Assembly (NCBI RefSeq): GCF_002532075.1 | Contig: NZ_LYXE01000072.1 | Span: forward strand, 1 to 64,000 | DNA: 64,000 nucleotides | Reading direction: 5' to 3' | From: Candidatus Chloroploca asiatica | Lineage (GTDB): Bacteria > Chloroflexota > Chloroflexia > Chloroflexales > Chloroflexaceae | Part shown: positions 24,333 through 47,057 of the stretch, piece after piece | How the letters are laid out: each line of letters begins with the position of its first letter | Position numbering within the stretch: position 1 is the stretch's first letter | Program-made: the position numbers and the translations under genes | The notes under the pieces: generated by a model | The model's database searches: none | Seen by the model: the letters and a program-made list of their open reading frames with translations, nothing else | What the model was told of the DNA's origin: nothing

Positions 24333-24842
24333 ATGGCTACTGCCTCTCCCCCAAGGTCACCCGCTGACCAGGCGAATGACAAACGCCTCAAGATCCTTGA
24401 GGCGACCATGAAACGCCACCAGTACCGCGCCGATGCGTTGATCGAGGTTTTGCATAAAGCGCAAGAATTGTATGGGCACCTGACCGAAGATCGGTTACTG
24501 GCGATTGCCCATAGCCTCCACCTTCCTCCCAGTCGCGTCTATGGGGTGGCGACGTTTTACCACTTCTTTAGCCTGACCCCGCAAGGCGAGCACAGCTGTA
24601 CCGTCTGTCTTGGGACAGCCTGTTATGTCAAAGGGGCGATGGAGCTGCTCGCGACGCTCGAAACCGAGAGTGGCCTGCGGGCCGGGTCAACCTCCGCCGA
24701 TGGCAAGCTTTCGCTGTTGACCGCTCGCTGCCTCGGGGCGTGCGGCATTGCGCCTGCGGTGATCGTGGATGGCAATGTGGCCGGCCATGCCGATCCCGAA
24801 GTGATGCGAGCACGGGTGCGTGCGTTGCTCGATGAGGATTGA
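24333..24842 (+). CDS. hoxE: Bidirectional [NiFe] hydrogenase diaphorase subunit HoxE
   Basis: A 169-residue NuoE-like thioredoxin-fold protein. The [2Fe-2S] ligands are Cys92, Cys97 (VCLGTACYVKG), Cys133 and Cys137 (CLGACGIAP). Together with HoxF and HoxU it forms the diaphorase module that passes electrons between NAD(P)H and the hydrogenase module HoxYH. It is the first gene of hoxEFUYH, and its stop lies nine bases before hoxF. Presence of hoxE places the enzyme with cyanobacterial-type Hox rather than the four-subunit Ralstonia enzyme. Confidence 0.95.
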   Translation: MATASPPRSPADQANDKRLKILEATMKRHQYRADALIEVLHKAQELYGHLTEDRLLAIAHSLHLPPSRVYGVATFYHFFSLTPQGEHSCTVCLGTACYVKGAMELLATLETESGLRAGSTSADGKLSLLTARCLGACGIAPAVIVDGNVAGHADPEVMRARVRALLDED

Positions 24843-24851
24843 GGGGGTGTG

Positions 24852-26468
24852 ATGGAATTTCAAGATCTTCAGATCATGGCCGAGCAGGAGCGAAGCCGCC
24901 GGAAGGCGATTCGGATCCACTGCTGTACCTCCTCGGGATGCCAGGCTTCGGGGGCGCTTGAGCTCTTTCATCAGTTGCAAGCGGCGGTTGAGGCGGCAGG
25001 ACAGAGTGAGCGGGTTGACATCGTTGGCGTCGGGTGTATGGGCTTTTGCGGCCAGGGGCCGATGGTGAGTGTCGAAGCTGATGGGGTGCTCTTTGAACAT
25101 GTGCGCCCTGAACAGGCCCCCGAAATTATTGCTTCACTTGATGGCGGGCCATGTAACGTCAAACAGGGCGACCACGCCCATCCGTTTTTTGCCCGTCAAT
25201 TGCATATTGTGCGGCGTAATGGCGGCGTGATCGATCCCGAACGGATCGAAGAGTATATTGCGGTCGGTGGCTATCAGGCGCTCTATCATGTGCTCCACGA
25301 GATGAGCCCGGCTGAGGTGATTGATGCGATCACCCGCAGTGGTCTGCGCGGACGAGGCGGGGCCGGCTATCCAACGGGCCTGAAATGGGCGACGGTCGCG
25401 AAGAGTCCCGGTGAACGCAAATTTGTCATCTGCAATGGCGATGAGGGCGATCCCGGGGCTTTTATGGATCGCAGTATCCTCGAAAGCGACCCGCATCTTA
25501 TCCTTGAAGGGATGAGTATTGCGGCCTATGCGGTCGGCGCCGATCAGGGTTACCTCTATGTGCGCGGTGAGTATCCGCTCGCAATTGCGCGCCTGCAGAA
25601 GGCCATTGCCCAGGCGAGAAAACATGATCTGCTCGGGAGCCAGATCTTTGATACGAGTTTCAACTTCCGGGTTGATATTCGGGTTGGGGCCGGCGCGTTT
25701 GTCTGTGGTGAAGAGACGGCCCTGATCGCGAGTATCGAAGGCCGCCGCGGCCAACCGCGGCCCCGGCCTCCGTATCCCGCTGAACACGGCCTCTGGGGCT
25801 ATCCCACGCTGATCAATAATGTCGAGACCTTTGGCAATATTGCCCCGATTATCACCAATGGCGCCGATTGGTACGCCGGCATTGGGACAGAACGCAGCAA
25901 AGGCACTAAGGTCTTTGCCCTGACTGGCAAGGTCCGCAATACCGGCTTGATCGAGGTGCCGATGGGTATGACCATCCGCGAGATTGTCGAAGAGCTCGGC
26001 GGCGGTACCCCCGATGGAACCCCGGTCAAAGGGGTGCAGACCGGCGGCCCCTCGGGGGGATGTATTCCCGAAGCCCTCTTTGATACGCCCGTTGATTACG
26101 AGTCGCTCGCCGAGGTTGGCTCGATTATGGGCTCGGGGGGCATGGTCGTGATGGATGCCACGACCAACATGGTGGAAATTGCCCGTTTTTACATGGAATT
26201 TTGCATGGATGAGTCATGCGGCAAGTGCGTTCCATGTCGCACAGGGACGGTACAAATGTATCGCCTGCTGAGCAAAATCAGTGCTGGGCAAGCCACAGCA
26301 GCCGATCTGGCGACCCTGGAACAACTCTGCCACCTGCTGCGCGAGACGAGTCTCTGTGGCCTGGGCCAGTCTGCGCCTAATCCCGTGCAGAGTACGCTGC
26401 GTTATTTTCGTGAAGAGTATGAACGGCTGCTACGCAAACGGGTGACGATCAATTTGACCAGTCGCTGA
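24852..26468 (+). CDS. hoxF: Bidirectional hydrogenase diaphorase subunit HoxF
   Basis: A 538-residue NuoF-like flavoprotein with an N-terminal thioredoxin-like [2Fe-2S] domain (Cys25, Cys30, Cys62, Cys66), FMN/NAD-binding region ([17 protein letters not shown], then [13 protein letters not shown]), SLBB segment and C-terminal [4Fe-4S] motif [11 protein letters not shown] plus SLCGLG. It oxidises or reduces NAD(H) at FMN. ATG 24852 is chosen; the overlapping GTG 24849 is possible. The gap of about 100 bases to hoxU contains a dispersed repeat, unlike the tight junctions elsewhere in the operon. Confidence 0.96.
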
Positions 26469-26569
26469 GTAGGGTGTGAAGTGAGTTTTTTGATGATTTG
26501 ACGCAAAGGCGCAAAGGCGCAAAGGGTGTTGAGACCGCCCCCGCCGCCTAGCGCCAAAGGAATGATGGC
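26469..26569 (+). repeat. Dispersed repeat inside the hox operon, between hoxF and hoxU
   Basis: Positions 26497-26524 are identical (28 bases) to 17028-17055 and consist of AAGGCGC-type units. The surrounding gap has no gene. It is probably transcribed within hoxEFUYH and may affect processing or relative expression of the hoxUYH half. Confidence 0.8.
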
Positions 26570-27277
26570 ATGGCCGCAAGAACCTTGACAATTAATGGAA
26601 CGCTGATCAGTGCCCGCTCGAATGAGACGGTGCTGGAAGCAGCACGTGAGGCCGGGATCAGCATCCCGACGCTTTGCCACCTGGATGGCCTCTCTGAAGT
26701 AGGTGCCTGTCGGCTCTGTCTGGTTGAGATCGCTGGCTCGGCCAAACTGCAACCCGCCTGTCATACCACCGTCACCGAGGGAATGGAGGTGCAGACGGAT
26801 ACGCCCCGCCTCAAGGCTCACCGCCGAGCGATCGTCGAACTGCTCTTTGCTGAACGCAACCATATCTGTGCCGTCTGCGTCGCCTCGGGACACTGTGAAT
26901 TGCAACAACTGGCCGTCGAAGTTGGGATGAGCCATGTGCGCTACGAGTATCTCTCGCCAGATTGCAGCGTTGATATCAGCCACGCCCGCTTTGGCATTGA
27001 CCATAATCGCTGTGTGCTCTGTACCCGCTGTGTGCGTGCGTGCGACGAGGTCGAAGGCGTGCATACCTGGGATATTGCAGGACGCGGAACGAATGCACGG
27101 CTGATTACTGATCTCAATGTGCCATGGGGCGAGGCGACGAGTTGTACCTCCTGTGGCAAGTGCCTCCTGGCATGTCCGACCGGGGCCATCTTTAGTCGGG
27201 GCAGCACCGTGGCTGAGCTTGAACGCGATGCCAGTCGCATTGCCACGATTGTGGCAGCCCGCAATGAACGCTGGTGA
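26570..27277 (+). CDS. hoxU: Bidirectional hydrogenase diaphorase subunit HoxU
   Basis: A 235-residue NuoG N-terminal-like iron-sulfur protein. A plant-type [2Fe-2S] domain comes first ([18 protein letters not shown]...PACHT), then the His/Cys-ligated cluster region ([15 protein letters not shown]), then two [4Fe-4S] sets ([11 protein letters not shown] and [14 protein letters not shown]). It bridges electrons from HoxF to HoxY. It lies 3' of a repeat-containing gap and is followed by hoxY. Confidence 0.95.
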
Positions 27278-27297
27278 CACCGAAATGGAGAGCCTAT

Positions 27298-27831
27298 ATG
27301 AACCGTCTGAAACTTGCGACTGTCTGGTTGGGAGGGTGCTCGGGCTGCCATATGTCGCTCCTCGATCTTGATGAATGGTTGATCGATCTTGCTGCCCACG
27401 TCGAACTGGTCTATAGCCCGATTGCCGATCAGAAGACTTTTCCCGAAGGTGTCGATCTGGCCCTGGTCGAGGGCGCGATTGCCAATGAAGAGCATCTCGA
27501 ATTGATCCAGGATGTCCGTGAGCGGAGCCGCATGGTCATTGCGCTCGGTGATTGCGCCGTCACCGGCAATGTGACCGCGCTGCGCAACCCGCTCGGCGAG
27601 GCGCGTAGCATCCTGCAGCAGGTCTATATTGAACACGGCGATCCACGCGGGATCCTGCCGAGTACGCCAGGGATTGTCCCGATCCTGCTTGATCAGGTCG
27701 TCCCGATCCATATGATCATCCCCGTTGACCTCTTCCTAGCAGGTTGTCCTCCTTCTGGCCCACGCATTCGCGCCGTGCTCGAAGCCTTGCTGGCAGGTAC
27801 ACCTCCTGAACTAGCCGGAGGGTTCGGGTAA
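27298..27831 (+). CDS. hoxY: [NiFe] hydrogenase small subunit HoxY
   Basis: A 177-residue short small subunit. Proximal cluster ligands are in [28 protein letters not shown] and [10 protein letters not shown]. It lacks the Tat signal and long C-terminal cluster domain of uptake hydrogenases, as expected for a cytoplasmic Hox enzyme. ATG 27298 with GGAG seven bases upstream is preferred to the GTG at 27274 that overlaps the hoxU stop. hoxH follows after 67 bases. Confidence 0.95.
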
Positions 27832-27898
27832 GCGCGACACCCAAGCAACGCACTTGGACGCATATGGCCCTCGCCAGAGGCCTATAGAGGAACGACCA

Positions 27899-29323
27899 AT
27901 GACACAGACAATCGTGATCGATCCTGTCACCCGTATTGAGGGACACGCAAAGATCAGCATCTATCTCGACAATGACGGGTCGGTGCGCGATGCCCAGTTT
28001 CACGTCACCGAGTTTCGTGGCTTTGAGCGCTTTTGCATCGGGCGGCCCTTCTGGGAAATGCCGGCGATTACGGCCCGCATCTGCGGTATCTGCCCAATTA
28101 GCCACATCCTGGCATCGGCCAAGGCAGGCGACGCCTTACTGGCTGTCGAGATTCCGCCGGCTGCCGATAAGTTGCGGCGGCTGATGAATCTCGGCCAGAT
28201 TATTCAATCGCACGCGCTCAGTTTCTTTCATCTCAGCGGCCCCGACCTGTTTCTTGGCTATGAGAGTGATCCGGCGAAACGCAATATCTTTGGACTAATT
28301 GCGGCTGAACCAGACTTTGCCCGTGGGGGCATTCGGCTCCGCCAGTTTGGGCAGGAGATCATTGAGGCGCTCGGCGGGCGCAAGATCCACCCCGCCTGGG
28401 CGGTGCCCGGCGGTGTCCGTTCGGGGATAAGTGCAGAGGTGCGGGCGGCCTTTCGCCAGCGTTTGCCCGAAGCAATGGATGTCACCCGCAAGGCGATGGC
28501 TCGCTTCAAGACCGTGCTTGATGCCAGTGACGAAGAAGTTCGCAGCTATGGCTTCTTCCCTAGCCTTTTTGCGGGCATGGTGACGCCCGAAGGCAACTGG
28601 GAACATCACGGCGGCAAACTGCGCGTGCGTGATGCCGAAGGCCAGATCCTGGCCGACCAGGTCAAAGCTGACGCCTATCAGCAACTCTTTGGCGAAGCAT
28701 CGGAAGCCTGGAGCTACCTAAAATTCCCGTATTATCAACCCCTCGGCTATCCCGACGGCATTTATCGGGTGGGGCCATTGGCGCGCCTCAACGTGTGCGA
28801 CCAGGTAGGGACACCGCTCGCCGACGCAGAACTGACCGAGATGCGCCAGCGTGCTGGGCACCGGATGGTCACGGCAAGTTTCTACTACCACTATGCACGG
28901 CTGATCGAGATCCTCGCGGCGCTTGAACTGGTTACTCAGTTGCTCGACGACCCCGACCTGGGTTCGAGCGTATTGCGCGCCGATGCCGGGGTCAATCATC
29001 TCGAAGCCGTCGGATGTAGCGAAGCACCACGGGGGAGCCTCTTCCATCATTATCAGGTCGACAAGAATGGCCTGATCACCTATCTGAACCTGATCATCGC
29101 GACAGGGCAGAACAACCTGGCGATGAACCAGACCGTCGCGCAGATCGCCCGCCATTACCTGCGCGGGGATCGCCTCGAAGAAGGTTTGCTCAATCGGGTC
29201 GAGGCTGGCATCAGAGCATATGATCCGTGCCTGAGCTGCTCGACCCACGCAGTAGGCCAGGCGGCCTTTGCAATCAGCCTGATCGGCCCCGATGGGCGGG
29301 TGGTGGATCACGCGGTGCGGTAG
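27899..29323 (+). CDS. hoxH: [NiFe] hydrogenase large subunit HoxH
   Basis: A 474-residue catalytic subunit. Nickel-iron ligands are in [11 protein letters not shown] (N-terminal pair) and DPCLSCSTH (C-terminal pair). About 24 residues follow the final His and should be removed by a HoxW-type protease during maturation, so this is a precursor form with the full set of ligands. It catalyses reversible H2 oxidation coupled to NAD(P)H. ATG 27899 has GAGG eight bases upstream and gives the family start [16 protein letters not shown]. No hyp or hoxW genes are in the window, so maturation genes must lie elsewhere. Confidence 0.96.
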
Positions 29324-33716: not shown

Positions 33717-35243
33717 TCAGGCGTGAAAGGTTACGACGACTTTCCCAAACTGGACTTTCGCCTGGTCGGGGAGTGGGGTTGGGACGTTGGGGAGCAAGCG
33801 CTCGCCATTGATCCGCGTGTGGTTGGTGCTATCGAGATCGGTCAGCATCCACTGACCGTCTTTGTGCGTGATCCGTGCATGCTTGCGGCTGACGCCACCT
33901 GTTTCACCGCCAAATGAGGTAAGGTCAATCTCGGGAAAGATACTACTCACCGGATCTTCGCGGCCGACGATGATTTCGGCCCGATCAGTGGGCAAGGTCA
34001 GCATTTGCCCGCCGTCAGCGATGACAAAATGCGGACCGAGCGGCGGCGGGGCGACCGGGGCCGGCGGGGCGACCGGGGCCGGGGGCGCTACCGGGGCCAC
34101 CGCAACCGGGGCCGGGGGCGCTACCGGGGCCACCGCAACCGGAGCTGCATCTGGAGCAAGGCCGAGTTTGTTCAATTCATCCTGAGCACGGCTCAACACC
34201 TCACGCGCTTCGGCGAGACCAGCCGAGACGGCCGCAGGTGTTGCTGCCCCAAACGTGGCCTGCATTTGCTCGAACTGACTGATGATCTGTTGCTGGCGGG
34301 CCACGGTTGCCTGCAGGGCACTGACCACCGCAGGGTCAACGGTCGGTGCGGGAGGTACAAGCGCTGCCAGCGAAGCCTCGATACGCGTATAGGCCTCACG
34401 TGCCTCGGCCAGACCAGCGAGAACTGCAGCGGGCGTATCGGCCCCAAAGGTGGCTTGCATCTGTTCAAACTGAATGATGATCTGCGCCTGGCGGGCAAGC
34501 TCGGCCTCGAGTTCGTTGCGCTGTGCTTCGTAGCTCGCGACATCCACTGGCGCAGGGGCGACCGGCGCGGACGCGCTTACGCTTGGCTCGGCCTCTAGCG
34601 CTGGTGCAGGGGCAACTGGCTCAGCCACGATGGGCATGGCAGACGCTGGTTCGGCCTCGGGCTCAGATACAATCGGCACTGCCTCCATCACGGGCGCAGG
34701 AGCCACCGGCTCGGCTTCGACCGGCGCAGGGGCCACCGGCTCGGCTTCGACCAGCGCAGGGGCCACCGGCTCGGCTTCGACCGGCGCAGGGGCCACCGGC
34801 TCAGGCGCGACGAGTTCGGCCTCGGGTTCAGATACAATCGGCACTGCCTCCATCACGGGCGCAGGGGCCACCGGCTCGGTCTCGACGGGGGCAGGAACGG
34901 TCAGTTCGGGCAGCGTTGGTGGTGACTCAGGGGCAGCGGGAACCTCAAGGGGAACCTGAGCGGACGAAGGAGGTGACCCTGGGTGCGCCGAAGCCGCGGC
35001 AAGTTGCTGCCAGAGCATCTGCAGATCGGCGCCACAATTGTCACAAAATGCCTCACCGGGCAACACCGAGGCGCCGCAACTCGGGCACACCGGTGCCGTC
35101 GTCAAGACCGGGGCAGGGGCAGCAGTCACCGCCACGGGGGGCGGAGGCGAGGCCGGCAGATCATTGGTCAAACGAGCGCCACACTGGTCACAAAAGCGAT
35201 TGGCTGGATCATTCAGCGCACCGCACGAGGGACAGGTAATCAT
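33717..35243 (-). CDS. Zinc-ribbon and FHA-domain adaptor protein
   Basis: About 508 residues. The N-terminus carries two zinc ribbons (CPSCGALNDPANRFCDQCG and CPSCGASVLPGEAFCDNCG). A long Ala/Pro/Glu/Val-rich linker with repeated APVEAEPVAP units follows. Two nearly identical helical repeats of about 40 residues (Q-I-I-x-Q-F-E-Q-M-Q-A-T-F-G-A) come next. The C-terminal FHA domain has IIVGRED, VSRKHARI, STNHTRINGERL. FHA domains bind phosphothreonine, so this is likely the reader of the local PP2C/kinase system. ATG 35243 lies five bases after AGGAG; the Shine-Dalgarno site is just upstream of the VWA stop, so the four genes form one unit. Confidence 0.93.
   Translation of the reverse strand: MITCPSCGALNDPANRFCDQCGARLTNDLPASPPPPVAVTAAPAPVLTTAPVCPSCGASVLPGEAFCDNCGADLQMLWQQLAAASAHPGSPPSSAQVPLEVPAAPESPPTLPELTVPAPVETEPVAPAPVMEAVPIVSEPEAELVAPEPVAPAPVEAEPVAPALVEAEPVAPAPVEAEPVAPAPVMEAVPIVSEPEAEPASAMPIVAEPVAPAPALEAEPSVSASAPVAPAPVDVASYEAQRNELEAELARQAQIIIQFEQMQATFGADTPAAVLAGLAEAREAYTRIEASLAALVPPAPTVDPAVVSALQATVARQQQIISQFEQMQATFGAATPAAVSAGLAEAREVLSRAQDELNKLGLAPDAAPVAVAPVAPPAPVAVAPVAPPAPVAPPAPVAPPPLGPHFVIADGGQMLTLPTDRAEIIVGREDPVSSIFPEIDLTSFGGETGGVSRKHARITHKDGQWMLTDLDSTNHTRINGERLLPNVPTPLPDQAKVQFGKVVVTFHA
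34190..34480. repeat. Intragenic duplication within the FHA protein gene
   Basis: Two DNA copies of about 120 bases (near 34190-34290 and 34390-34480) encode the near-identical helical repeats, and a further array at about 34690-34800 repeats a 30-base unit encoding APVEAEPV. The identity at DNA level points to recent duplication. Confidence 0.8.
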
Positions 35244-35253
35244 CATGACTCCT

Positions 35254-36510
35254 TCACACATCTGCTTCATCCAATTTCTGGGTCAACCGGCGGGTCGCAT
35301 AGCGCAACTCTTTCTGGCCTTCAGCACTCAACCCACTCCCCTGTTCAAGCTGATCGGCCTGAGCGGTCGTCTTCGCCGCAAGATCTAGTTCGCCGAGGTC
35401 AAGCAAGCGCGTTGCGGCAGCACGAAGTTTCTGCGTTGCCCCAGAGAGATTGCCAAGCTCTGCCTCAGCGAGCGCCCGGGTCTGCAGCTTGAAGGCAGTG
35501 ACTTTCTCGACAAGATTCATCACCCGTGGGTCATAGACAGGGGCCGCAGCCTCGGTAGTGAAGGACAACAACAGATCCTGTTTCACCACCTCAGGCCCAG
35601 ATGCACCGGGAAGGGTAGCGTGCAATTCGGCCTGGGCAATACGGAAGGTACCAGCGGAACGTACGGGAACCATCAGATCGAGCACGACACTATTGACCTG
35701 TCCATGGACGAGATCGCCGAGTTTAACGGCAACTTCGCTCTCGCCAATGGGCTGATAACCAAGATTGGCGATAGTTGGGGTTGCACGATGCACAGCGCGG
35801 GGAACAACTTCTTTGACGAGCCGGAGCAAGAGACGGGCATCCGTAGCGGCTGTGCCCTGCGCACTACGGAGCGCACGCTGAAAGAAGGTTGCAATCTGTG
35901 CCGGTTCAGCGATATAGTCAGAGACCCCGCCAGTCGCGTCAGCGAGATCATCAAGCAACTTCTCATTCCACTCGACCCCAAGGCCCAAGGCGGTTATGCG
36001 AACCCCGGCCTGCCCGAGGTCATTGGCAAGAGTACGACAGAGATCCTCATCACCCCAGGTTTGCCCATCAGTGAGGAGCACGAGATAACTGAGGCGGTCG
36101 GGGCCAAGGTATTTTTGCAACTCGGCCTGGCCGGCTTGCAGACCAAGGGACATCGCGGTACCACCCGACTCGGTAATCGTATTGACCGCCGCAAGGAGAG
36201 CCGCAGGATCAGTTGCGGGCGTCGCTGGCACCAGGGTCTGCACCGTATCATCAAAGATGACAATTGAAACCACATCCGCCGGGGTCAACGTCTCGATAAC
36301 GCGGCTTGTAGCGGCCTTCATACTCTCAAGCTTGGCACCCTGCATCGAACCCGAGCGGTCAAGCACAAAACAGAAATTGAGTGGCACGGGCACCGAGGGT
36401 TGGGTCGCGGGGGTAGCCTCGACAAGCAGATAGGCTACCTGGGGCGTACCGGTCACAGGTAGGGGCGCCCGCCCCCATGTACATGTCAACGTGACGGCAT
36501 CAGCCATCAT
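35254..36510 (-). CDS. VWA-domain protein with intact MIDAS metal site
   Basis: A 418-residue protein with a von Willebrand A domain at about 40-215. The MIDAS residues are present: DRSGSM (Asp51, Ser53, Ser55), Thr in SGGTAMSLGL and Asp in LLTDGQTWGD. A beta-sandwich-like region and a helical C-terminal tail rich in Ala/Leu follow (TQKLRAAATRLLDLGELDLA). There is no signal peptide or membrane helix, so it is probably cytoplasmic. Its ATG overlaps the stop of the pseudokinase-phosphatase gene (ATGA), indicating translational coupling. VWA proteins often act as scaffolds with phosphatases or MoxR ATPases; no MoxR gene is here. Confidence 0.93.
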   Translation of the reverse strand: MMADAVTLTCTWGRAPLPVTGTPQVAYLLVEATPATQPSVPVPLNFCFVLDRSGSMQGAKLESMKAATSRVIETLTPADVVSIVIFDDTVQTLVPATPATDPAALLAAVNTITESGGTAMSLGLQAGQAELQKYLGPDRLSYLVLLTDGQTWGDEDLCRTLANDLGQAGVRITALGLGVEWNEKLLDDLADATGGVSDYIAEPAQIATFFQRALRSAQGTAATDARLLLRLVKEVVPRAVHRATPTIANLGYQPIGESEVAVKLGDLVHGQVNSVVLDLMVPVRSAGTFRIAQAELHATLPGASGPEVVKQDLLLSFTTEAAAPVYDPRVMNLVEKVTAFKLQTRALAEAELGNLSGATQKLRAAATRLLDLGELDLAAKTTAQADQLEQGSGLSAEGQKELRYATRRLTQKLDEADV

Positions 36511-38066
36511 ATGCCTCCGGGAATATCAGCAAAACGGACAAGAATCGACGCAATATTATCTTCGCCGCCGGCACGATTCGCCGCAGCGATCAGGCGCTCA
36601 CAGATCACGTGGGGATCATCATCAGCGGCCAGCAACAGTTCCATCTCGGGATCGTGGGTCATCTCCCACTGCCCATCAGAGCAGAGGAGCAGGGCATCAC
36701 CAGCGCGGACGCGCTCGTGAAAGATATCAACTTCAACTTCACGGCGATCGCCGAGCGAACGCAACACGGCATTGCGTTGAGGATGGGTATAAATATCTTG
36801 ATCGGCAATCTGACCAAGATCAACCAAGCGTTGCACCAGCGAATGGTCTTTGCTGATCCTGATGAGGCGCCCCTCGTGATAGCGATAGGTACGACTATCA
36901 CCAACATTGCCGACGGTCACCCGATCACCAACAACCAGCGCCATCGTAAGGGTCGCGCCCATATCATTGCCCTGGGCACGGGCCTCGTTGACCACCGCCT
37001 CATTCGCGGCCAGCACTGCACGGCGGACAAGTTCCCCGACTTCCACCTGGTTATAGCCGTGCTCAGGATCAAGCGCCTGGGCCAGGTACGCCTGCATCAC
37101 GAGTTGCGCCGCAGCCCGCATCGCGAGGCCACTGGCGAGCTCACCTGCCGCGTGGCCGCCCATGCCATCCGAGACAAGATAGAGGCCGATAGCCTGGAAG
37201 GAGCTATTATTATTTGCGGCGAGTTGCAAGGTCAGGTAACTATCTTCATTATGGTCACGCACGATCCCAACATGCGTTGCGGCCCCAACGATCTGGCGCA
37301 AACAAACCGGCAAGGCACGTTCAGCCCGCATCGCTTCGAGACGCGTGAGCAGCGTGAGCGCATTGGTACACTCACCAGTACGTACCTGACGCAACAACAG
37401 AGGCAAACCCGGCTGTTCAGCCTCTGCAGCGGCGGCAGCCTCTTCACTCAAGCGTCGGGTTGTACGCGGCGTGACCGTCAACTGCTCGAGCAATTCAGCA
37501 AGGGCCATCAAATCGGTGCGCACCGCCGCCGAGGCCTGGTCAGCCTCAACCCGACGCAAACCGGCAGCATCACGGAGACGCACGCGACCACTGGGCATCA
37601 CCTCAAGATCGGTCATTGCCAGCGAACCGAGCACCAGCGCGTGGTCGTGCAAATAGACGAGCAGCCGGGCGAGCGTCATACCAAGATCAAGCGCCGCAAA
37701 TTCATCAAGCGGGGCGGCGAGCGTCGTTGGCCCGTGATCGTGCAAGAGCGTCAGGACGAGATCATCCTCGGCAACCTGGGCGACAACCTCGGGCAAAAGG
37801 AGGCGCACCTCTTCAGCATCAATCGTCGGCACCAGGGCCGGGCCAATGAGGGCATCGGGCGTGGTCAGGGTGGCCCGATAGCTCCGCTCATCAAGGGCTG
37901 CGCCACAGTCATTGCAAAACGCATCACCAGCCTCATTAGAGAGCGAGCCACAGGCCCAGCAGCGTTGCCAGGGCATCGTATCGACGACACTGATCGTACC
38001 AGAGCGATCGCCCTCGGGGAGCACATAGCGGTCGGCAAACAGATTGGGGGCTGACTGGTTCATCAT
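36507..38066 (-). CDS. Zinc-ribbon pseudokinase fused to PP2C phosphatase
   Basis: A 519-residue protein. The C-terminal 255 residues are an active-looking PP2C: DHNEDSY, VSDGMGGHAAGE, GNVGDSRTYRY, DHSLVQRLVDLGQI, LLCSDGQWEM and GGEDNI. The N-terminal 240 residues resemble a Ser/Thr kinase that lost catalysis. LHDHALVLGSLAMTDLEV lies where LHxxGIVHxDLKPxN is expected, with Ser148 in place of the catalytic Asp. RVRLRDAAGL takes the place of KLxDFGL, and TDLMALAELLEQL the place of the F helix. A C-x2-C...C-x2-C zinc ribbon (36-54) is inserted in the would-be N-lobe. ATG 38066 or 38063 both follow AGGAG. It overlaps the VWA gene by four bases. Confidence 0.9.
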   Translation of the reverse strand: MMNQSAPNLFADRYVLPEGDRSGTISVVDTMPWQRCWACGSLSNEAGDAFCNDCGAALDERSYRATLTTPDALIGPALVPTIDAEEVRLLLPEVVAQVAEDDLVLTLLHDHGPTTLAAPLDEFAALDLGMTLARLLVYLHDHALVLGSLAMTDLEVMPSGRVRLRDAAGLRRVEADQASAAVRTDLMALAELLEQLTVTPRTTRRLSEEAAAAAEAEQPGLPLLLRQVRTGECTNALTLLTRLEAMRAERALPVCLRQIVGAATHVGIVRDHNEDSYLTLQLAANNNSSFQAIGLYLVSDGMGGHAAGELASGLAMRAAAQLVMQAYLAQALDPEHGYNQVEVGELVRRAVLAANEAVVNEARAQGNDMGATLTMALVVGDRVTVGNVGDSRTYRYHEGRLIRISKDHSLVQRLVDLGQIADQDIYTHPQRNAVLRSLGDRREVEVDIFHERVRAGDALLLCSDGQWEMTHDPEMELLLAADDDPHVICERLIAAANRAGGEDNIASILVRFADIPGGI

Positions 38067-38102
38067 CTTCTCCTGGAGGCCTCGCGGAACTTCACCACAC
38101 GA

Positions 38103-39356
38103 TCAGACCACACGGGCCATCACAACCGTAATATTATCCTTGCCCCCGCCCTCGTTGGCGCGAGCGACTAACTGCGCACACGCCTGAGCAACCGAGGAAG
38201 CATTGAGTACCATACGAGCGAGTTCTTCATCCTCAACATGGTTGACCAGGCCATCCGAGCAGAGCAAAAGTGTATCACCGGGAGCCAGCGCATGGCTACG
38301 CGTATCGACCTCTAGGGTCGGATCACCACCAAGCGAACGATAGACCACATTGCGTTGCGGATGCATACGCGCCTGGGCGGGCGTGATCTGCCCAATATCA
38401 ACCAGGCGAGCCACCAGGCTATGGTCAGTCGTCAGTTGCACCCAGGGCAAGCCCTCGTTGACCACCCCAGCCGGATTAATCAGATAGGCACGACTATCGC
38501 CAACGTGCCCAAGATGCACGCGCCGACCGACAACTAGCGCAACGGTCATGGTTGTGCCCATGCCCTGCTGATTAGCATGGGTCTGGGCGTGCTGGTAGAC
38601 GATCTGATTCGCCTGCAAAACTGCCCGTTGCAACAATTCATGCCAGCCAGCATCAGTGGTGGGCACACCATAGCTCAACGCTTTGACCAGATAGGTTTTC
38701 AGGGTCGTTGTCGCCAGAGTCGACGCCACATCGCCCGCCTGATGCCCACCCATCCCATCGGCGACGATCAGCAACGTACCAATTGTATCATCAGCCGTCG
38801 TAAATTCACCAGTATAAAACGTATCTTCATTGACTGGTCGCACCATCCCGATATCAGTACGTGAAGCGATCTGCAACCGTGGTAAGGGCGACACGCGGGG
38901 CACCGTCTGAAGATCAGGCCGCAGCGGGGTTCCACAGGCAATGCAATACCTAGCGCTGGCGCGATTACCTCGGCCACAGATAGCGCATGGGAGCGGGAAG
39001 AGACGCTGGGCGGGCAAACACCCAGTCACCTGCACCGTCTCACGCCCGAGCGCGATCTGGGTCGCCAGACTATCAAGGATCTGCGAGAGATCCTTAATGG
39101 CTGCGGCGGCGGTTGCACGCGCGACCCCATCCGTCGACGCAAGGCGTTGCCGCCAGAACGTCACCCCCGACTCAACGACAGCCAGAAGCTCAGGCAAACT
39201 AAGGGTATCAGGAGCTAAGTGGAGGCGGCGGCCCCCTGACAAGGCGATCTCTTCGGGTTCATCGCCCACAACGGCACCGCAGCGGGTGCAGTAGCGTGCC
39301 CCCGGGCTAAGGCTTGTCCCACAGACAGAACAGGATCGGGAACCCACAGCGGTCAC
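38103..39356 (-). CDS. PP2C-family phosphatase with two zinc ribbons
   Basis: A 417-residue protein. Zinc ribbons lie at about 8-28 (CSVCGTSLSPGARYCTRCG) and 122-142 (CAICGRGNRASARYCIACG), separated by a helical segment of about 85 residues. The PP2C domain follows with VNEDTFYT, ADGMGGHQAGD, GHVGDSRAYL, DHSLVARLVDIGQI, LLCSDGL and GGKDNITVVM, all metal ligands present. It removes phosphate from Ser/Thr in the cytoplasm. The GTG start has AAAGGGG eight bases upstream. It is the first gene of the PP2C / pseudokinase-PP2C / VWA / FHA unit, 36 bases ahead of the next. Confidence 0.94.
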   Translation of the reverse strand: MTAVGSRSCSVCGTSLSPGARYCTRCGAVVGDEPEEIALSGGRRLHLAPDTLSLPELLAVVESGVTFWRQRLASTDGVARATAAAAIKDLSQILDSLATQIALGRETVQVTGCLPAQRLFPLPCAICGRGNRASARYCIACGTPLRPDLQTVPRVSPLPRLQIASRTDIGMVRPVNEDTFYTGEFTTADDTIGTLLIVADGMGGHQAGDVASTLATTTLKTYLVKALSYGVPTTDAGWHELLQRAVLQANQIVYQHAQTHANQQGMGTTMTVALVVGRRVHLGHVGDSRAYLINPAGVVNEGLPWVQLTTDHSLVARLVDIGQITPAQARMHPQRNVVYRSLGGDPTLEVDTRSHALAPGDTLLLCSDGLVNHVEDEELARMVLNASSVAQACAQLVARANEGGGKDNITVVMARVV

Positions 39357-41621: not shown

Positions 41622-44600
41622 TCAGGCTTCTTCGTTGAGGATCCGGAAGAAGAGCTCGACGACCTGCGGATCAAAGTGCGTGGCTGAGAGGCTCGCGAGA
41701 TGCTCGCGCACGCGGTCTTCAGGCCATGCCTTGCGGTAGGGGCGATCCGAGCGGAGGGCATCCCAGACATCAACAATCGCAAAGAGGCGTGCTGCCAGCG
41801 GGATCGCTTCACCCTTGAGGCCCCGAGGGTAGCCTGTGCCGTCCCATTTTTCGTGGTGGCAATAAGGGATAGCGAGGGCCGGGCGCAAATAGGTAATGGG
41901 CGAGAGCAACTCATAGGCATAGGTCGGGTGGCGCTTCATAATCTCCCACTCTTCGGGGGTCAGCGGCCCAGGTTTGAGCAAGATCGCATCGGGAATACCC
42001 ATTTTGCCAATATCGTGGAGCAACGCACCCCGGCGAATATGGACAAGTTCCGCATCGCTCATCCCGACGGCACGGGCCAGGTGCAGGGTCAATTCAGTGA
42101 CCCGCAGCGAATGGCCTTCCGTCTCTTTATCACGTAAATCAAGGGCATATGACCAACCCTCGATCGTCTTATCGTAGGCAAGGGCAAGTTCCGTGTTGGC
42201 CCGTTGCAGATTTTCAAACATCGTCGCATTATCAATAGCAATTGCCGACTGACCGGCAATCACCTCAAGGAAGTTCATCCAGTTCTGATCTTCGGGGATC
42301 GGCTTGCGGTCAAAAATCTCGAGCACGCCTTGCACCTGACCTTTGGCGAGCAGCGGCAACGCCAGGTAATGCGTAAAGCCTTCACGCTCGTAGAAACGGT
42401 CACCGACCCAGTTCGTGCCGATCTCCTCGGCACTATAGGCACGCACAGGGCGCTGCTCGAGTGCAGCCGTGCCCGAGAGTCCGCTCCCAACCTTGACGAG
42501 CGAATGTTTGACCGCATTGGTACGAAAACCATATCCTGCCGCAAAGCGCAGTTCATGGGAATGGGACTGGAGCAGCAACATAGTTGCCGCAGCGACATCT
42601 TGCAGCGCCGTGACCCGGTTGAGGATGAGATCAAGCGTAATGCTGAGATCCATACTCGATGTAATCGCCATATCAATCATGCGCAGGGCTTGCTGCTGCT
42701 CGATCTTCTTGAGCGTTTCGCGGAAGAGTTCCGCATTATGCAGCGCAATTGCCGTCGTATTGGCAACCCAGGTCAGCAATTCAGCATCGGTCTCGCCAAA
42801 ACGATTGACCTGACGATCCTGCAGCGCCAGCACACCAACAACGGCATCCTTGGCGAGCATGGGCACAAAGATGGCTGACTGGATCAGTTCAGCACCTGTA
42901 TCAGAGAGCGGGGCGTGGATGCGCCTGAGAGCCTTTTGATAATGAGGAAGAATCACCGGTCGCCGGGTATGGATCGCCTCGCTATGGGTACCCCAACCAG
43001 GTGGCTCAAGGGCAACGGAAGGAACGTGCGTGAGATCTTCCGTTTGACCATCATGGTAGATATGCGCCGGGATGATGATGCGGCTCTCGGCATCATAGCG
43101 ACTCAACAGAATAGCTTCGACATCAGGAAAGAGTTTCTGGACGGTCGCCCTGACCGTCGCATAGATCGTCGGCAGATCAAACGTACTCGAGAGATCGCGA
43201 CCGAGTTGATTGATCAGTGCAAGGTGTTCAGCGCGCATCTGCGCATCCTGCTGGAGGCGCACCCGATGCAACGAATTGCCAAAAATATCGAGCAAGGTCG
43301 CAAAGAGATGGGGGCTATAAGAGGATCCGCCAGAGACAATTGGTGTTGCAAGGACAAGCACACCCTCAATCAGATTGCTCGACTCGACGACAGCGCAGAC
43401 ACCCCGCCAGCCTGCGGGCATCTGGTGGCGCAACGAAGCAGCAAGGCGCGGATCGGTCTGAAAATCTTCGACCAGGAGAATCTCGCCAGCATTGATCAAG
43501 GTTTCCACGACCTCTTCACCCCGTTCAAGGGAAGTCAACGGCACATCAGCAAAGTCACCTGACATTGCCATGGGGATGAGTTGATGCGCGTTGAGATCGC
43601 GCCAGAGGAAGAAACTGGCCGTAAAACCCAAGATCGTGCGTGATTTTTCCAGAAAGAGAGCGAGCAACTCACGGTAGGTAGGGACGACGCGAAGCGAACG
43701 AACAATCGCATAGACTGCTTCGAGTTCATCGAGGCGCTGGCGGGTCACTTTGAGCAACCAGTCTTGCTCAACCACTCCTGCAATCATCTGGTTAATCTGG
43801 AGCAATACAGCTTCATCGTCAACGCTAAACTCACCTGAAGAAGGACGCGAGAGCATAACACAACCCAGAGACGCGCCATTATTGCCAGGCAGCAAAGAAG
43901 CAAGCAGGCCATCCAAGAGCGGACACGGCGCAGTGTGGCTAACTAGTTGACGCAAGGTCGAGAACTGCTCAAGCTCGGCGTGCGTCAAGCGCACGAGATG
44001 GTGATGCGACTTCAAATGAGTCATTACAACTGTGGCGAGCTCAACCTGATCTGTCTGTTGACACTGTGCATAGTCAGGAGCGAAGGATGACATAAGCAGA
44101 GGATGCGTCAGACTGCGCTGGGCAGCGAGAAACGTCAGCGCAATCTGGGCACCAATGGCCTCACGGAGCCCATCCGTCAGGATCTGCAATTTCTCTTCCA
44201 GAGCCATGGGCGCAGAAATTTCCACACTCAGGCGGGCAAGAATCTGATTACGCCGGGCATTTTCGGCAATGCGCTGCTCATCTTGTTTGCGTCTGGTAAT
44301 ATCCATCAAGCTCACCAGCACCGTGCCAGTGTCACTGTCGAGCGAAGGAAAGACCATCGTCTGCAAGACATAGAGGCGTTCGAGGGAAGCTGTCGAGAGC
44401 ATCATCTCCGTTGCAAAGACGGTCTCGCCATTAGCAAGGGCGAGTAACTGCTGCACAAAGCCTGGCATGGTTTCGGGGAGGGCAAACTTGGGCGCAATCG
44501 ACTTGAGCATCTGCGATTTCGACTGCGCCTTAAAGATCTTGAGGGTTGCATCATTGACATCAAGGACACGAATCTGATGCAGCGCCTCGTTGACACGGTC

Positions 44601-45362
44601 GGGATGCTGAGCAAAGTAGGCCTGGAAATCAGTAACCCCAGCCTGGCGCAACGCTCTAATCATCGCGATGACTGACGTCCAATCTTCTTCCCAAATCGAA
44701 ACCGGGACAAACTGAAAGATCGACTGGTAGCGTGAGCGGATGCGCTTCTGGTCTTCGAGCAGGCTCAGGAGCGTGCGCCGGGCACGTTCGGACTGTTCCA
44801 GTTCAACGTGCGCCTGATGTTCCACTTCGCGGGAGAGTCGATGGCGTTGTTGTTCCGTCAGATCCGTTGCAATGACACAAAACAGGTGCTCGCCATCAGC
44901 CAGTTGCACCTCACTCGACGAGAGCAACACCGGCAACTTCACATCGCCATAGCCTTCGAGGAGAAACTCACCACGGCCGCCGCCATAGAGCAGAGACTGA
45001 AAGAACTTGCGACTCGTAGGAGTCACCCAATCTTGCAGGCGTGAAGCCGTTACCCGTTCGGGAAGAGTCATCAGCATCTCGGCGAAACGCCGATTGCAAT
45101 AGATCACAATGCCTTGCGCACTCACCAAGAGGGCACCCTCACTCATCGCCTCAATGAGCGTGCGGTAGGTCTGATCGGCTGTTCTGGCAGTAAAGATCTG
45201 CTTGCCCCAGGCTCCACTCATCACCAGGGCATCAACCTTGCGGTCACGAACCGCGCCAATAACCTCTTCGAGTTCAAGCAGACGAGCACGCAGATCGGCA
45301 TTTTCGTGTTGTAATTGAGCAACGGAATCGGCATCAGTGCTCGTGAGGGGCTTATCTTCCAT
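41622..45362 (-). CDS. Multi-sensor HD-GYP c-di-GMP phosphodiesterase
   Basis: A 1246-residue cytoplasmic protein. After a short N-terminal coiled coil (residues 14-45) come two PAS-like regions (about 60-170 and 215-365) and about four GAF domains (about 390-545, 555-710, 735-890, 905-1055). The C-terminal HD-GYP domain has HDIGKMGIPD (His1116, Asp1117) and HHEKWDGTGYP, with all metal ligands seen. HD-GYP enzymes hydrolyse c-di-GMP to pGpG or GMP. The upstream PAS-KaiB gene lies 21 bases away on the same strand, so the two are one operon. It is a likely counterpart of the GGDEF protein at 5123. Confidence 0.94.
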   Translation of the reverse strand: MEDKPLTSTDADSVAQLQHENADLRARLLELEEVIGAVRDRKVDALVMSGAWGKQIFTARTADQTYRTLIEAMSEGALLVSAQGIVIYCNRRFAEMLMTLPERVTASRLQDWVTPTSRKFFQSLLYGGGRGEFLLEGYGDVKLPVLLSSSEVQLADGEHLFCVIATDLTEQQRHRLSREVEHQAHVELEQSERARRTLLSLLEDQKRIRSRYQSIFQFVPVSIWEEDWTSVIAMIRALRQAGVTDFQAYFAQHPDRVNEALHQIRVLDVNDATLKIFKAQSKSQMLKSIAPKFALPETMPGFVQQLLALANGETVFATEMMLSTASLERLYVLQTMVFPSLDSDTGTVLVSLMDITRRKQDEQRIAENARRNQILARLSVEISAPMALEEKLQILTDGLREAIGAQIALTFLAAQRSLTHPLLMSSFAPDYAQCQQTDQVELATVVMTHLKSHHHLVRLTHAELEQFSTLRQLVSHTAPCPLLDGLLASLLPGNNGASLGCVMLSRPSSGEFSVDDEAVLLQINQMIAGVVEQDWLLKVTRQRLDELEAVYAIVRSLRVVPTYRELLALFLEKSRTILGFTASFFLWRDLNAHQLIPMAMSGDFADVPLTSLERGEEVVETLINAGEILLVEDFQTDPRLAASLRHQMPAGWRGVCAVVESSNLIEGVLVLATPIVSGGSSYSPHLFATLLDIFGNSLHRVRLQQDAQMRAEHLALINQLGRDLSSTFDLPTIYATVRATVQKLFPDVEAILLSRYDAESRIIIPAHIYHDGQTEDLTHVPSVALEPPGWGTHSEAIHTRRPVILPHYQKALRRIHAPLSDTGAELIQSAIFVPMLAKDAVVGVLALQDRQVNRFGETDAELLTWVANTTAIALHNAELFRETLKKIEQQQALRMIDMAITSSMDLSITLDLILNRVTALQDVAAATMLLLQSHSHELRFAAGYGFRTNAVKHSLVKVGSGLSGTAALEQRPVRAYSAEEIGTNWVGDRFYEREGFTHYLALPLLAKGQVQGVLEIFDRKPIPEDQNWMNFLEVIAGQSAIAIDNATMFENLQRANTELALAYDKTIEGWSYALDLRDKETEGHSLRVTELTLHLARAVGMSDAELVHIRRGALLHDIGKMGIPDAILLKPGPLTPEEWEIMKRHPTYAYELLSPITYLRPALAIPYCHHEKWDGTGYPRGLKGEAIPLAARLFAIVDVWDALRSDRPYRKAWPEDRVREHLASLSATHFDPQVVELFFRILNEEA

Positions 45363-45383: not shown

Positions 45384-47057
45384 TTAGAGATCGAGGGCAA
45401 TGAGCACACGTGCCGTATCAGAGAGATCACCAACAATGCGACAGGCAGGCAGCGGTTGCTGACGCACCAGCGTCGGTACCGCAATGATACGCTCTTTTTC
45501 GGCAAGCTGAGGTTGCTGATAGAGATCAATAATCTCTAATTCATAGCGTCCCTTGAGATATTCTTCACAGATCGCTGTAATATTGGTCACCGCACGGAAG
45601 GAATGGGTCGTCATCCCGGTAATATAGAGACAGAGGATATACTTCTCGTGCTCTTGCGCAACCACAGAGTGGAGATCGACACTTGCATAGCGAGGGGCTT
45701 TGCCGGTATCTTGCAGCAGATAGTTGATTTCACGCTTGAGAGCGATGATGCGCTCTTCATTATCGAGGGTCAACAGATGCCAGCGTTGCAACTCGTCCAA
45801 CTGGTTACGCTGTTGTTCCTCGGCCTTCCGGCGCTCGCTGATATCCTGGAACGCCCCATGCACCAGGATAATCGTACCATCAGCATCGCGGACAGCCTCA
45901 CCAATAGTGCGCACCCAGACCCGGCGACCTTTGGAGGTGATAATCTGCAATTCTTCATCGTAGGGCGTCCCATCGCGGGCGCAGGCCCCGAAGACTTCGG
46001 CAATGCGCTCGCGATATTCGGGGGCGTAATAGTTGAGGCCCTGATCGACCGAAGGTGAAATCCCAAGGGGTTCTTCGTGGATGAAAGCAACCTCGTCGGA
46101 CCAGACCACCCGATTATCGCGCAGATCCACCGACCAGCCACCGAGACGAGCCATCCGTCCCGCGATGTGCAGGAGGAGGTTCCGATGATACAGATCCGCC
46201 TCAGCCTGTTTGCGTTCGGTGATATCGCGAAAATTAATCAAGAGTGCAGCCACACTCGGCTCGGCAAGGAGATTGGTAAAAGTCGTCTCGATCCAGCGCC
46301 ACGATCCATCACGGTGCTGAGCGCGATACTCAATGGTCGGGTGAAGCTCAGGATGGTTGAGCGCCTGGGTACGTGCCTCAACGACACGGGGCAGATCATC
46401 AGGATGCGTCGCCTGGATGGGTTTGAAGTCAAGCGGTTCAGCTTCACCATAGCCAAAGGTGCGCCAAGCTGAAGGGCTGGCAAAGATCAACGTACCATCT
46501 TCTTGGACTAGCACAATACCATCAACCGCGTGCTCGATCAACGCACGAAAGTGATTTTCACGCAACGCAAGCTGGAGACTGCTCGCCTCGACATAGGCAA
46601 GATACGCTTGCTGCGCATCCTCCCGTGCCTGTTCAGCCAGGATCTGCTGAGTAATATTTTCGTGCGCGGTAATAAGGTGACTACCATCAATAAACCGGGT
46701 CACACGCAAACGAAACCAGCGCAACTCGGTGGGCGAATGGCACGGATAGACGTGGATAAACTCGTCAAGTTCACCTGCGATGACCTCGCGAATACCTTGG
46801 GGGATCGTCTCATCACATGCATCGGTGAGGTTGTAAATATGCGGATCAGGCCGGGATTCGCAGATCGCAAAGTAGTTTGCCCCCAGCCCATAGTTGACTG
46901 GAACCGGCGGATTTTCATCGGCGAAGGTACACCAGGCCTTATTGACGGCGACAATATTGCCGTTCAGATCCAGGACAGCAATATGGGCGGAAAGACCGTC
47001 CAGAGCAGCTTGAATGAAGTCCTGGCCCTCTGTTGTCACCGAAGATGTCGTGCGCAT
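45384..47057 (-). CDS. PAS sensor with C-terminal KaiB domain
   Basis: A 557-residue protein. Three PAS/PAC units lie at about 10-140, 165-290 and 300-420, each ending in an N/D-I-T/S-E-R-type stretch. A conserved helical linker (LDELQRWHLLTLDNEERIIA) follows. Residues 471-557 match KaiB: KYILCLYITGMTTHSFRAV, LEIIDLYQQPQLAEKERIIA, VPTLVR and RIVGDLSDTARVLIALDL. KaiB is a thioredoxin-like clock protein that binds KaiC; SasA kinases carry a related domain at their N-terminus. Here it replaces the histidine kinase as the output. The Shine-Dalgarno GGGAGG is well placed. It is co-transcribed with the HD-GYP gene. No kaiC or kaiA gene is in the window. Confidence 0.92.
   Translation of the reverse strand: MRTTSSVTTEGQDFIQAALDGLSAHIAVLDLNGNIVAVNKAWCTFADENPPVPVNYGLGANYFAICESRPDPHIYNLTDACDETIPQGIREVIAGELDEFIHVYPCHSPTELRWFRLRVTRFIDGSHLITAHENITQQILAEQAREDAQQAYLAYVEASSLQLALRENHFRALIEHAVDGIVLVQEDGTLIFASPSAWRTFGYGEAEPLDFKPIQATHPDDLPRVVEARTQALNHPELHPTIEYRAQHRDGSWRWIETTFTNLLAEPSVAALLINFRDITERKQAEADLYHRNLLLHIAGRMARLGGWSVDLRDNRVVWSDEVAFIHEEPLGISPSVDQGLNYYAPEYRERIAEVFGACARDGTPYDEELQIITSKGRRVWVRTIGEAVRDADGTIILVHGAFQDISERRKAEEQQRNQLDELQRWHLLTLDNEERIIALKREINYLLQDTGKAPRYASVDLHSVVAQEHEKYILCLYITGMTTHSFRAVTNITAICEEYLKGRYELEIIDLYQQPQLAEKERIIAVPTLVRQQPLPACRIVGDLSDTARVLIALDL

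Follow-up and report, generated by a model that had tools for sequence, protein, structure and literature searches.

A probable phospho-switch operon of the ArnA-ArnB type in the bacterium Candidatus Chloroploca asiatica

We analysed a stretch of 64,000 nucleotides from Candidatus Chloroploca asiatica ("the window") and propose that four of its genes probably form a bacterial phospho-switch operon of the ArnA-ArnB type. ArnA and ArnB of Sulfolobus acidocaldarius make up an experimentally studied archaeal phospho-switch, together with ArnC/ArnD and PP2A. To our knowledge, no other FHA-VWA phospho-switch of prokaryotes has been studied as well as this one, which was investigated in a single archaeal order. 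Profile comparisons make the homology of the window's VWA and FHA proteins to ArnB and ArnA, respectively, well supported. A photosynthetic bacterium would thus have a bacterial cousin of the archaeal switch, plus its own phosphatases, in a single operon. A preliminary description of this DNA compared the genes with TerY-P and type VI secretion (T6SS) sets and overlooked ArnA-ArnB, the closest counterpart.

All four open reading frames are present and intact on the minus strand, with the overlaps and short gaps that the preliminary description gave them. The first gene (38103..39356) encodes a PP2C protein of 417 amino acids, in which a helical stretch between two zinc ribbons is followed by a Stp1-type PP2C domain. 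The second gene (36507..38066), 36 nt away, encodes a protein of 519 amino acids with a zinc ribbon, a degenerate kinase C-lobe (the pseudokinase stretch, amino acids 91-196, 37479..37796, which was located by profile comparison), and another PP2C domain (amino acids 264-510, 36537..37277). This gene has a 4-nt stop/start overlap (36507..36510) with the VWA gene (35254..36510), whose 418-amino-acid product is the predicted ArnB-like hub: a beta-sandwich with an inserted vWA domain (amino acids 47-195, 35926..36372), followed by a C-terminal helix bundle and tail (amino acids 328-416, 35263..35529). The adjacent FHA gene (33717..35270) overlaps the VWA gene by 17 nt and encodes the putative ArnA-like reader of 517 amino acids. 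It has two N-terminal zinc ribbons (amino acids 10-34, 35169..35243, and 62-83, 35022..35087), an Ala/Pro-rich linker with two coiled repeats, and a C-terminal FHA domain (amino acids 434-509, 33744..33971) with the phosphothreonine-binding G-R, S-R-x-H, and N residues. As had been described, every protein of the set except the VWA protein has at least one zinc ribbon.

The gene order, which the preliminary description suggested checking, is kept in the family and in other relatives, and our literature searches found no named bacterial system for this gene set. The set is kept more often than chance would allow: the VWA protein is present in 39 of 41 family genomes (E ≤ 1e-100) and the FHA protein in 38 of 41 (E ≤ 1e-25).

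The VWA protein matches PF00092, and its MIDAS, described earlier as intact, is indeed so: an alignment of 18 VWAs shows no variation at D51, S53, S55, T118, or D148. When we searched the PDB with a profile of the VWA family (38 sequences), the top match was ArnB from Sulfolobus (8s05_A, E = 3.1e-34), and the alignment, of positions 45-406 to positions 40-381 of the ArnB chain, reaches the C-terminal helix bundle. The VWA protein has no Pfam match to ArnB_C (IPR040929) at E ≤ 0.1, but the family-profile alignment does cover the ArnB_C region. The predicted structure of the VWA protein (pLDDT 92.3, pTM 0.88) aligns to ArnB with Z = 32.9 over 371 residues (rmsd 4.0), at an identity of only about 18%. 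Its alignment to 5a8j, a paralogue of ArnB, has Z = 27.2. The closest fold is that of 4fx5, a VWA protein from Catenulispora (Z = 38.6, 396 residues). Because this bacterial protein ranks above ArnB, both in the fold search and in a single-sequence search, the tripartite fold does not by itself identify a protein of the ArnB type.

The FHA protein matches PF00498, and across 17 sequences, G436, R462, H464, and N483 are invariant and S461 is nearly so. The best PDB matches of the family profile (A5, the same number of sequences) were to ArnA (8s05_C, 3.4e-18, and 5a8i, 4.3e-17), and the alignment covers both the zinc ribbon and the FHA domain. ArnA's top rank may partly arise because few solved chains combine these two domains, and ArnA was not among the matches of a single-sequence search. 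These results support the earlier view of this protein as the reader in a Ser/Thr phospho-module. The protein scores 39.8 bits against the mycobacterial FhaB/FipA-type equivalog NF049868 (cut-off 125).

In Sulfolobus, arnA and arnB are also adjacent (PMC6509490). The zinc finger of ArnA binds unphosphorylated ArnB and its FHA domain binds the phosphorylated C-terminal bundle of ArnB (PMC12852372); the complex accelerates both the phosphorylation and the dephosphorylation of ArnB (PMC7472852). The resemblance to the window pair includes neighboring genes, one protein built of zinc ribbon, linker, and FHA domain, and another that combines a MIDAS with the vWA-sandwich-helix-bundle layout; each Arn protein is the top PDB profile match of its counterpart; and ArnA-ArnB is acted on by Ser/Thr kinases and a phosphatase, as we propose for the window pair. 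In contrast, the Sulfolobus system is archaeal, controls the archaellum, and uses PP2A as its phosphatase, while the window operon is bacterial, both of its phosphatases are PP2Cs, and it has a pseudokinase, several zinc ribbons, and, in relatives, a kinase within the operon. As far as we know, the Sulfolobus kinases and phosphatase are not in a single operon with arnAB.

By analogy, we propose that the VWA protein would be the hub and main substrate, with its C-terminal bundle and tail offering conserved threonines. Some kinase and the PP2Cs would set the phosphorylation of these threonines, which the FHA partner would read. The reader would be loosely held to the hub through its zinc ribbon until contact between the FHA domain and a phosphothreonine locks it onto the phosphorylated hub, and both PP2Cs would remove the mark. 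From this computational analysis, we infer which proteins interact, what is phosphorylated, in which direction the switch works, and which kinase writes the mark. The ArnA-ArnB counterpart offers a concrete reason for the recurrent clustering of VWA, PP2C, kinase, and FHA genes in bacteria, and it makes an under-studied type of bacterial signalling testable: writer (whose gene many relatives retain in the operon), eraser, pseudokinase, substrate, and reader could be studied together in one compact system.

The candidate phospho-acceptor in the window protein is T406, in YATRRLTQKL. Among non-redundant VWAs, 16 of 21 with a neighboring zinc-ribbon FHA gene and 4 of 27 without one have the TRxL tail, in statistics that ignore kinship; it is absent from 7 of 31 loci with this neighbor. 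For chosen rows, the conservation of the bundle and of the tail is 0.57 and 0.57 with the neighbor versus 0.45 and 0.39 without. The 17 rows with the neighbor exclude four A3 rows (L088, L122, L139, and L141) that also have it, and the tails of these four have no TRxL at the equivalent place. The conserved threonine is out of register with the known phosphothreonines of ArnB. We also looked for a zinc-ribbon docking surface on the VWA protein via conservation and saw no clear signal: the surfaces corresponding to those by which ArnB touches the zinc finger of ArnA are not clearly more conserved (0.43 vs. 0.35 for the loop and 0.35 vs. 0.40 for the linker).

Judging from their sequences, both PP2Cs are apparently active. 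The first scores 252 bits against the Stp1-type family NF033484, above the cut-off of 230, and with its two zinc ribbons it is a double-zinc-ribbon PP2C, as originally described. The second scores 213 bits, just under this cut-off, and its metal-site residues are invariant (15 aligned). The 50 PDB matches listed for the model of the second PP2C protein (mean pLDDT 82.4) are all PP2Cs. Its zinc ribbon is under the Pfam cut-off (18.6 vs. 27 bits), and the four cysteines are nearly invariant in 11 relatives. Pfam finds only a trace of a kinase (PF14531, E = 0.09). When a 10-sequence profile was compared to a profile of 12 kinases encoded in operons of this kind, residues 66-258 aligned with a probability of 95.8 and E = 8e-9 (for that single comparison), versus 1.6 and 0.5 for the PP2C and FHA control profiles. 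The RDxKxxN and DFG residues are missing, so the label of pseudokinase-PP2C holds, and the kinase-like C-lobe may be a non-catalytic regulatory or docking part. Profile comparison did not support an idea formed by eye, that the zinc ribbon lies within a degenerate N-lobe (E = 0.05 to 0.13).

The preliminary description also held that this set of genes has no active kinase. This is true of the window operon and of its genus, but it does not define the system: 16 of 35 readable family genomes encode a zinc-ribbon membrane kinase that looks active at the operon site, and Ktedonobacteria likewise have a kinase within the operon. (The other six family genomes are outside this count: in G167 and G168, the stretch seen holds the VWA-FHA pair only; G152 and G178 have contig ends; and G154 and G164 have no VWA match.) The relatives' gene lies between those for the pseudokinase-PP2C and the VWA protein, which is where the 4-nt overlap is in the window. 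These kinases have an N-terminal zinc ribbon and membrane segments, and VAxK, RDLKPxN, and DFG are present in 15 of the 16; the 16th is interrupted by a contig end. The 19 kinase-less genomes include all three of the window genus, so the absence of the kinase is a lineage trait. On a tree of the 35 rows, there were at least four changes, a count that fits gains and losses alike. Losses would be the simpler explanation, given that most of the earliest branches have the kinase, but at the outgroup loci (G110, G070, and G150) no kinase adjoins the pseudokinase-PP2C. In the part of the family that has the operon kinase, it would be the writer.

In the window genus, the most likely writer of the mark would be a sister module's kinase. 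Contig C175 of the window genome encodes a complete paralogous kinase-PP2C-VWA-FHA set with its own propeller kinase, and contig C79 encodes a kinase-zinc-ribbon-FHA fusion whose nearest relatives on the tree lie inside such operons elsewhere. With these two module-type kinases at hand, it seems very unlikely that the phosphate comes from the PASTA kinase at position 412, as first suggested. That protein, also encoded in the window, is a complete kinase of the Stk1 type, but it is 33 kb away on the opposite strand, is of the general PknB/Stk1 type, and ranks eighth among 22 kinase matches in the genome by similarity to a relative's operon kinase. We found nothing that links it to the operon, and the C175 and C79 kinases are better candidates. 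We also considered whether the operon kinase had been displaced within the genome. The best matches to the relatives' operon kinase are on contigs C79, C171, and C156, and none of them is the moved gene, because genomes with an operon kinase also encode counterparts of them at separate places (such as G061:C106 and G061:C24) and because they fall outside the operon-kinase clade.

The output of the operon might instead be an FHA-gated ABC exporter, as in the PknF-Rv1747 pair of Mycobacterium tuberculosis, in which we know of no VWA or PP2C protein; the window genus would then keep a residual circuit with another target. A gene for a ZnR-FHA-FHA-ABC transporter does divergently adjoin the operon in many relatives. 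It is present in all 16 kinase-bearing genomes, in 8 of the 19 kinase-less genomes, and in none of the 3 genomes of the window genus or the 5 of genus g4. These raw counts for the co-loss of kinase and exporter are striking (p = 2e-4, plain Fisher test, which ignores kinship), but on the tree, where just four pairs are independent, kinase and exporter show no significant association (median p = 1, sign test). PknF shares an operon with the double-FHA exporter Rv1747 (PMC3908365). The window genome has no exporter, and all four genes nonetheless persist there. We consider this reading unlikely.

If kinase and exporter were both lost, as their absence from all three genomes of the window genus would allow, then the operon could be a leftover without a switching function. 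This seems highly improbable given that all four reading frames are intact with identical overlaps in the three genomes, the VWA proteins of different species are 97% identical, and the MIDAS, PP2C, and FHA residues are intact.

The zinc ribbons might have a broader role within an ArnA-ArnB-type switch. A speculative extension, which we think is unlikely, is that the zinc ribbons are interchangeable docking tags for the ribbonless ArnB-like VWA protein, which would serve as their common dock. The ribboned partners would be the reader, both phosphatases, the relatives' operon kinase, the kinase-FHA fusion, and the FHA-ABC exporter. If so, the hub would still work after a ribboned protein was lost or swapped (as with the kinase and the exporter here), because it could borrow partners from sister modules in the same genome. 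The ArnA-ArnB counterpart in bacteria itself points to a role for the zinc ribbons that can be tested; a survey of bacterial PP2Cs from 2025 guessed that they bind DNA (PMC12088040).

Lastly, the operon could be a divergent TerY-P-like triad (VWA, PP2C, and zinc-ribbon kinase) with an added FHA protein, for stress response or phage defence. The domain set does match that of TerY-P as given in PMC11090510, if the kinase of the relatives is counted, and Kaur et al. (2020) describe a zinc-ribbon kinase, a PP2C, and a standalone vWA protein beside GTPase conflict systems (PMC7159879), which also counts in its favor. Nevertheless, the window operon has no kinase, and the relatives' kinase has its ribbon at the N-terminus, with membrane segments, rather than at the C-terminus; the FHA reader and the pseudokinase-PP2C set the operon apart from TerY-P as PMC11090510 presents it. 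There are no TerD matches in the whole genome, which agrees with the earlier statement that ter genes are lacking. Neither the VWA protein (E ≤ 0.01) nor the FHA protein has a match in PADLOC-DB, a library that may hold no TerY model. As for T6SS, from which the set had also been said to differ, the FHA protein scores 28.9 bits against the TagH-type model TIGR03354, far under the cut-off of 120.25. On the features tested, the operon is not a member of TerY-P or T6SS, and we regard a TerY-P-like role as quite unlikely. Unlike a patchy defence cassette, the operon occupies one place in almost every family genome.

The minus-strand genes encoding a PP2C (38103-39356), a pseudokinase-PP2C (36507-38066), a VWA protein (35254-36510), and a zinc-ribbon FHA protein (33717-35270) are present as first described, and Pfam and NCBIfam searches bore out the domain assignments. 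They form a real, conserved phosphosignalling operon that is built round a bacterial pair of the ArnA-ArnB type. (ArnA and ArnB are the FHA and VWA partners of a phospho-switch in Sulfolobus.) The PP2C metal-site residues and the phosphothreonine-binding residues of the FHA domain are intact, as is the MIDAS motif of the VWA protein, as had been claimed. The pseudokinase assignment also held: in a profile comparison with active kinases from such operons, residues 91-196 of the 519-amino-acid protein align with the C-lobe, and the catalytic residues are gone from this kinase-like stretch. In the linker of the FHA protein (33717-35270, minus strand), a coiled repeat of about 50 residues (RQxQIIxQFEQMQATFGA...) occurs twice in nearly identical form, and both repeats are also found in the corresponding readers of relatives.

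With a family profile, the VWA protein matched ArnB best among all PDB chains (3.1e-34), followed by 4fx5 (9.3e-29); the single sequence found 4fx5 first and ArnB second. Structure alignment of the VWA model by VIA-align gave 4fx5 (Z = 38.6, 396 residues), then ArnB (8s05_A; Z = 32.9, 371 residues) and an ArnB paralogue (5a8j; Z = 27.2, 351 residues), and Foldseek gave the same top order. The family profile of the FHA protein placed ArnA first and second (3.4e-18 and 4.3e-17) and FHA-only chains from 4.4e-13, with the caveat that the sequences behind this profile are zinc-ribbon FHA proteins and that ArnA likewise combines a zinc ribbon with an FHA domain. ArnA was not among the matches listed for the single FHA sequence. 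Because ArnB and ArnA came first in the profile searches, the best profile matches of the adjacent VWA and FHA genes are the two members of a single solved complex.

According to three sources (PMC6509490, PMC12852372, and PMC7472852), unphosphorylated ArnB is held by the zinc finger of ArnA; the kinase ArnC phosphorylates the C-terminal bundle of ArnB, after which the FHA domain of ArnA binds tightly; PP2A reverses this; and both reactions are faster in the complex. ArnA is also described as a DNA-damage repressor (PMC10470591), in work that counts among the literature nearest to this gene set. ArnB-like folds occur in bacterial proteins (Catenulispora, YfbK) as well as in other lineages, and the parts consulted of the 2026 paper that reports this (PMC12852372) mention no bacterial ArnA-ArnB pair.

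By analogy, it is moderately likely that the operon uses an ArnA-ArnB-type mechanism. For a putative transfer of the Arn mechanism to this system, the C-terminal bundle and tail of the VWA protein stand out by their conservation. The mean share of the top residue in bundle and tail was 0.57 and 0.57 in 17 chosen VWA proteins with a zinc-ribbon FHA neighbour, versus 0.45 and 0.39 in 14 without one. T406, R407, and L409 are identical across those 17, from which four further VWA proteins with this neighbour, lacking the motif at that place, were left out. Among named loci from the best 80 of 490 VWA relatives, a TRxL tail was found in 24/31 with the neighbour and 10/49 without, or 16/21 versus 4/27 after thinning at 60% identity (Fisher test, P = 2.5e-5, ignoring kinship). 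The VWA surfaces corresponding to the ArnA zinc-finger contacts gave no comparable conservation signal. In Armatimonadota (loci L120, L121, L127, L130, L132, L145, and L155), two FHA genes directly precede a VWA gene whose tail motif is EKTLxGT, not TRxL; these loci may work in the same way through a different threonine motif.

The gene order (PP2C, pseudokinase-PP2C, sometimes a kinase, VWA, zinc-ribbon FHA) is conserved across the readable loci of the window's family, and our searches of an open-access library found no description of the set as a named bacterial system. The nearest known systems are TerY-P (PMC11090510) and a set, found next to GTPase systems, that combines a zinc-ribbon kinase, PP2C, and vWA (PMC7159879); work on kinase domain architectures (PMC1262709) is also close, and a PP2C survey reports zinc-ribbon PP2Cs in Chloroflexota (PMC12088040). 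Of the 41 family genomes, 39 contain the VWA protein and 38 contain the FHA protein. In a draw of 151 genomes from the phylum, full-length matches to the pseudokinase-PP2C were listed in 17 genomes from the window's taxonomic order, its own among them. The nearest named relative, Candidatus Chloroploca sp. Khr17 (VWA 97% identical), carries these four genes too and likewise lacks the kinase. For the best 80 of the 490 VWA relatives from named genomes, a zinc-ribbon FHA gene lies within 1.5 kb in 31, a PP2C nearby in 29, and an active-looking kinase within 4.5 kb in 24; all three are present in 19. These loci are mostly from Chloroflexota, and isolated ones bear the labels Armatimonadota, Myxococcota, or Nitrospirota. 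Dictyobacter and Thermogemmatispora have the order PP2C, kinase, PP2C, VWA, zinc-ribbon FHA, and in the stretches read from Herpetosiphon-like genomes only the pseudokinase-PP2C and VWA genes are kept. Two contigs of 7-8 kb, labelled Deltaproteobacteria (L087) and Nitrospiria (L093), share an unusual order (PP2C, VWA with a TRKLTQ tail, zinc-ribbon FHA, FHA-VWA-FHA-Zn, kinase), from either transfer or mis-binning.

The absence of an active kinase holds for the window's operon and its genus (3/3) but not as a general trait: at the site after the pseudokinase-PP2C, readable in 35 family genomes, 16 carry a kinase (two of these, G159 and G181, are on contigs that stop short of the VWA gene). The 19 without it include 5/5 of another genus, g4. 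The 15 operon kinases that could be read completely all show VAVK, RDLKPxN, and DFG motifs and begin with a zinc ribbon in their N-terminal part; a simple hydropathy window finds two to four hydrophobic stretches towards the C-terminus of each. In a quick tree they group as a single clade together with one Roseiflexus-labelled locus (SH-aLRT 100). Kinase presence requires at least 4 changes on the tree of the 35 family rows. The window carries a lineage variant of the operon that lacks the kinase.

In many relatives, a zinc-ribbon-FHA-FHA-ABC transporter lies divergently beside the operon. This exporter occurs in 29/41 family genomes (16/16 with the kinase and 8/19 without), and its link to the kinase was not significant on the tree. 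The copies in G155 and G165, two of the eight kinase-less genomes with the exporter, are 57% identical and may be paralogues. The exporter was not found in genomes of the window's genus; the window genome gave only generic ABC ATPase matches.

The window genome holds two candidates for the missing writer. Contig C175 carries a complete sister set: a zinc-ribbon FHA protein (167 amino acids), a VWA protein (420), a PP2C (268), and an active-looking kinase with a beta-propeller (754). The other candidate, a kinase-zinc-ribbon-FHA fusion on contig C79, groups in a quick kinase tree (SH-aLRT 93, long branch) with the fusions of loci L066 and L084, which directly precede zinc-ribbon PP2C, VWA, and zinc-ribbon FHA genes. 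A further phosphosignalling cluster of the same genome (L211, G000:C109:108000-124000) encodes VWA-FHA fusions, PP2Cs, an FHA-kinase-FHA protein, and a stand-alone kinase.

Elsewhere in the window, a minus-strand gene (45384-47057) encodes a protein with several PAS domains whose C-terminal domain is KaiB-like (PF07689, E = 1.7e-23), and adjoins a gene for a PAS/GAF/HD-GYP protein (41622-45362). On the plus strand, 24333-29323 is a run of genes of the NADH-linked [NiFe] hydrogenase type (2Fe-2S thioredoxin-like, Nuo51-like, NADH-G-like, and a Vhu/Frh-type large subunit).
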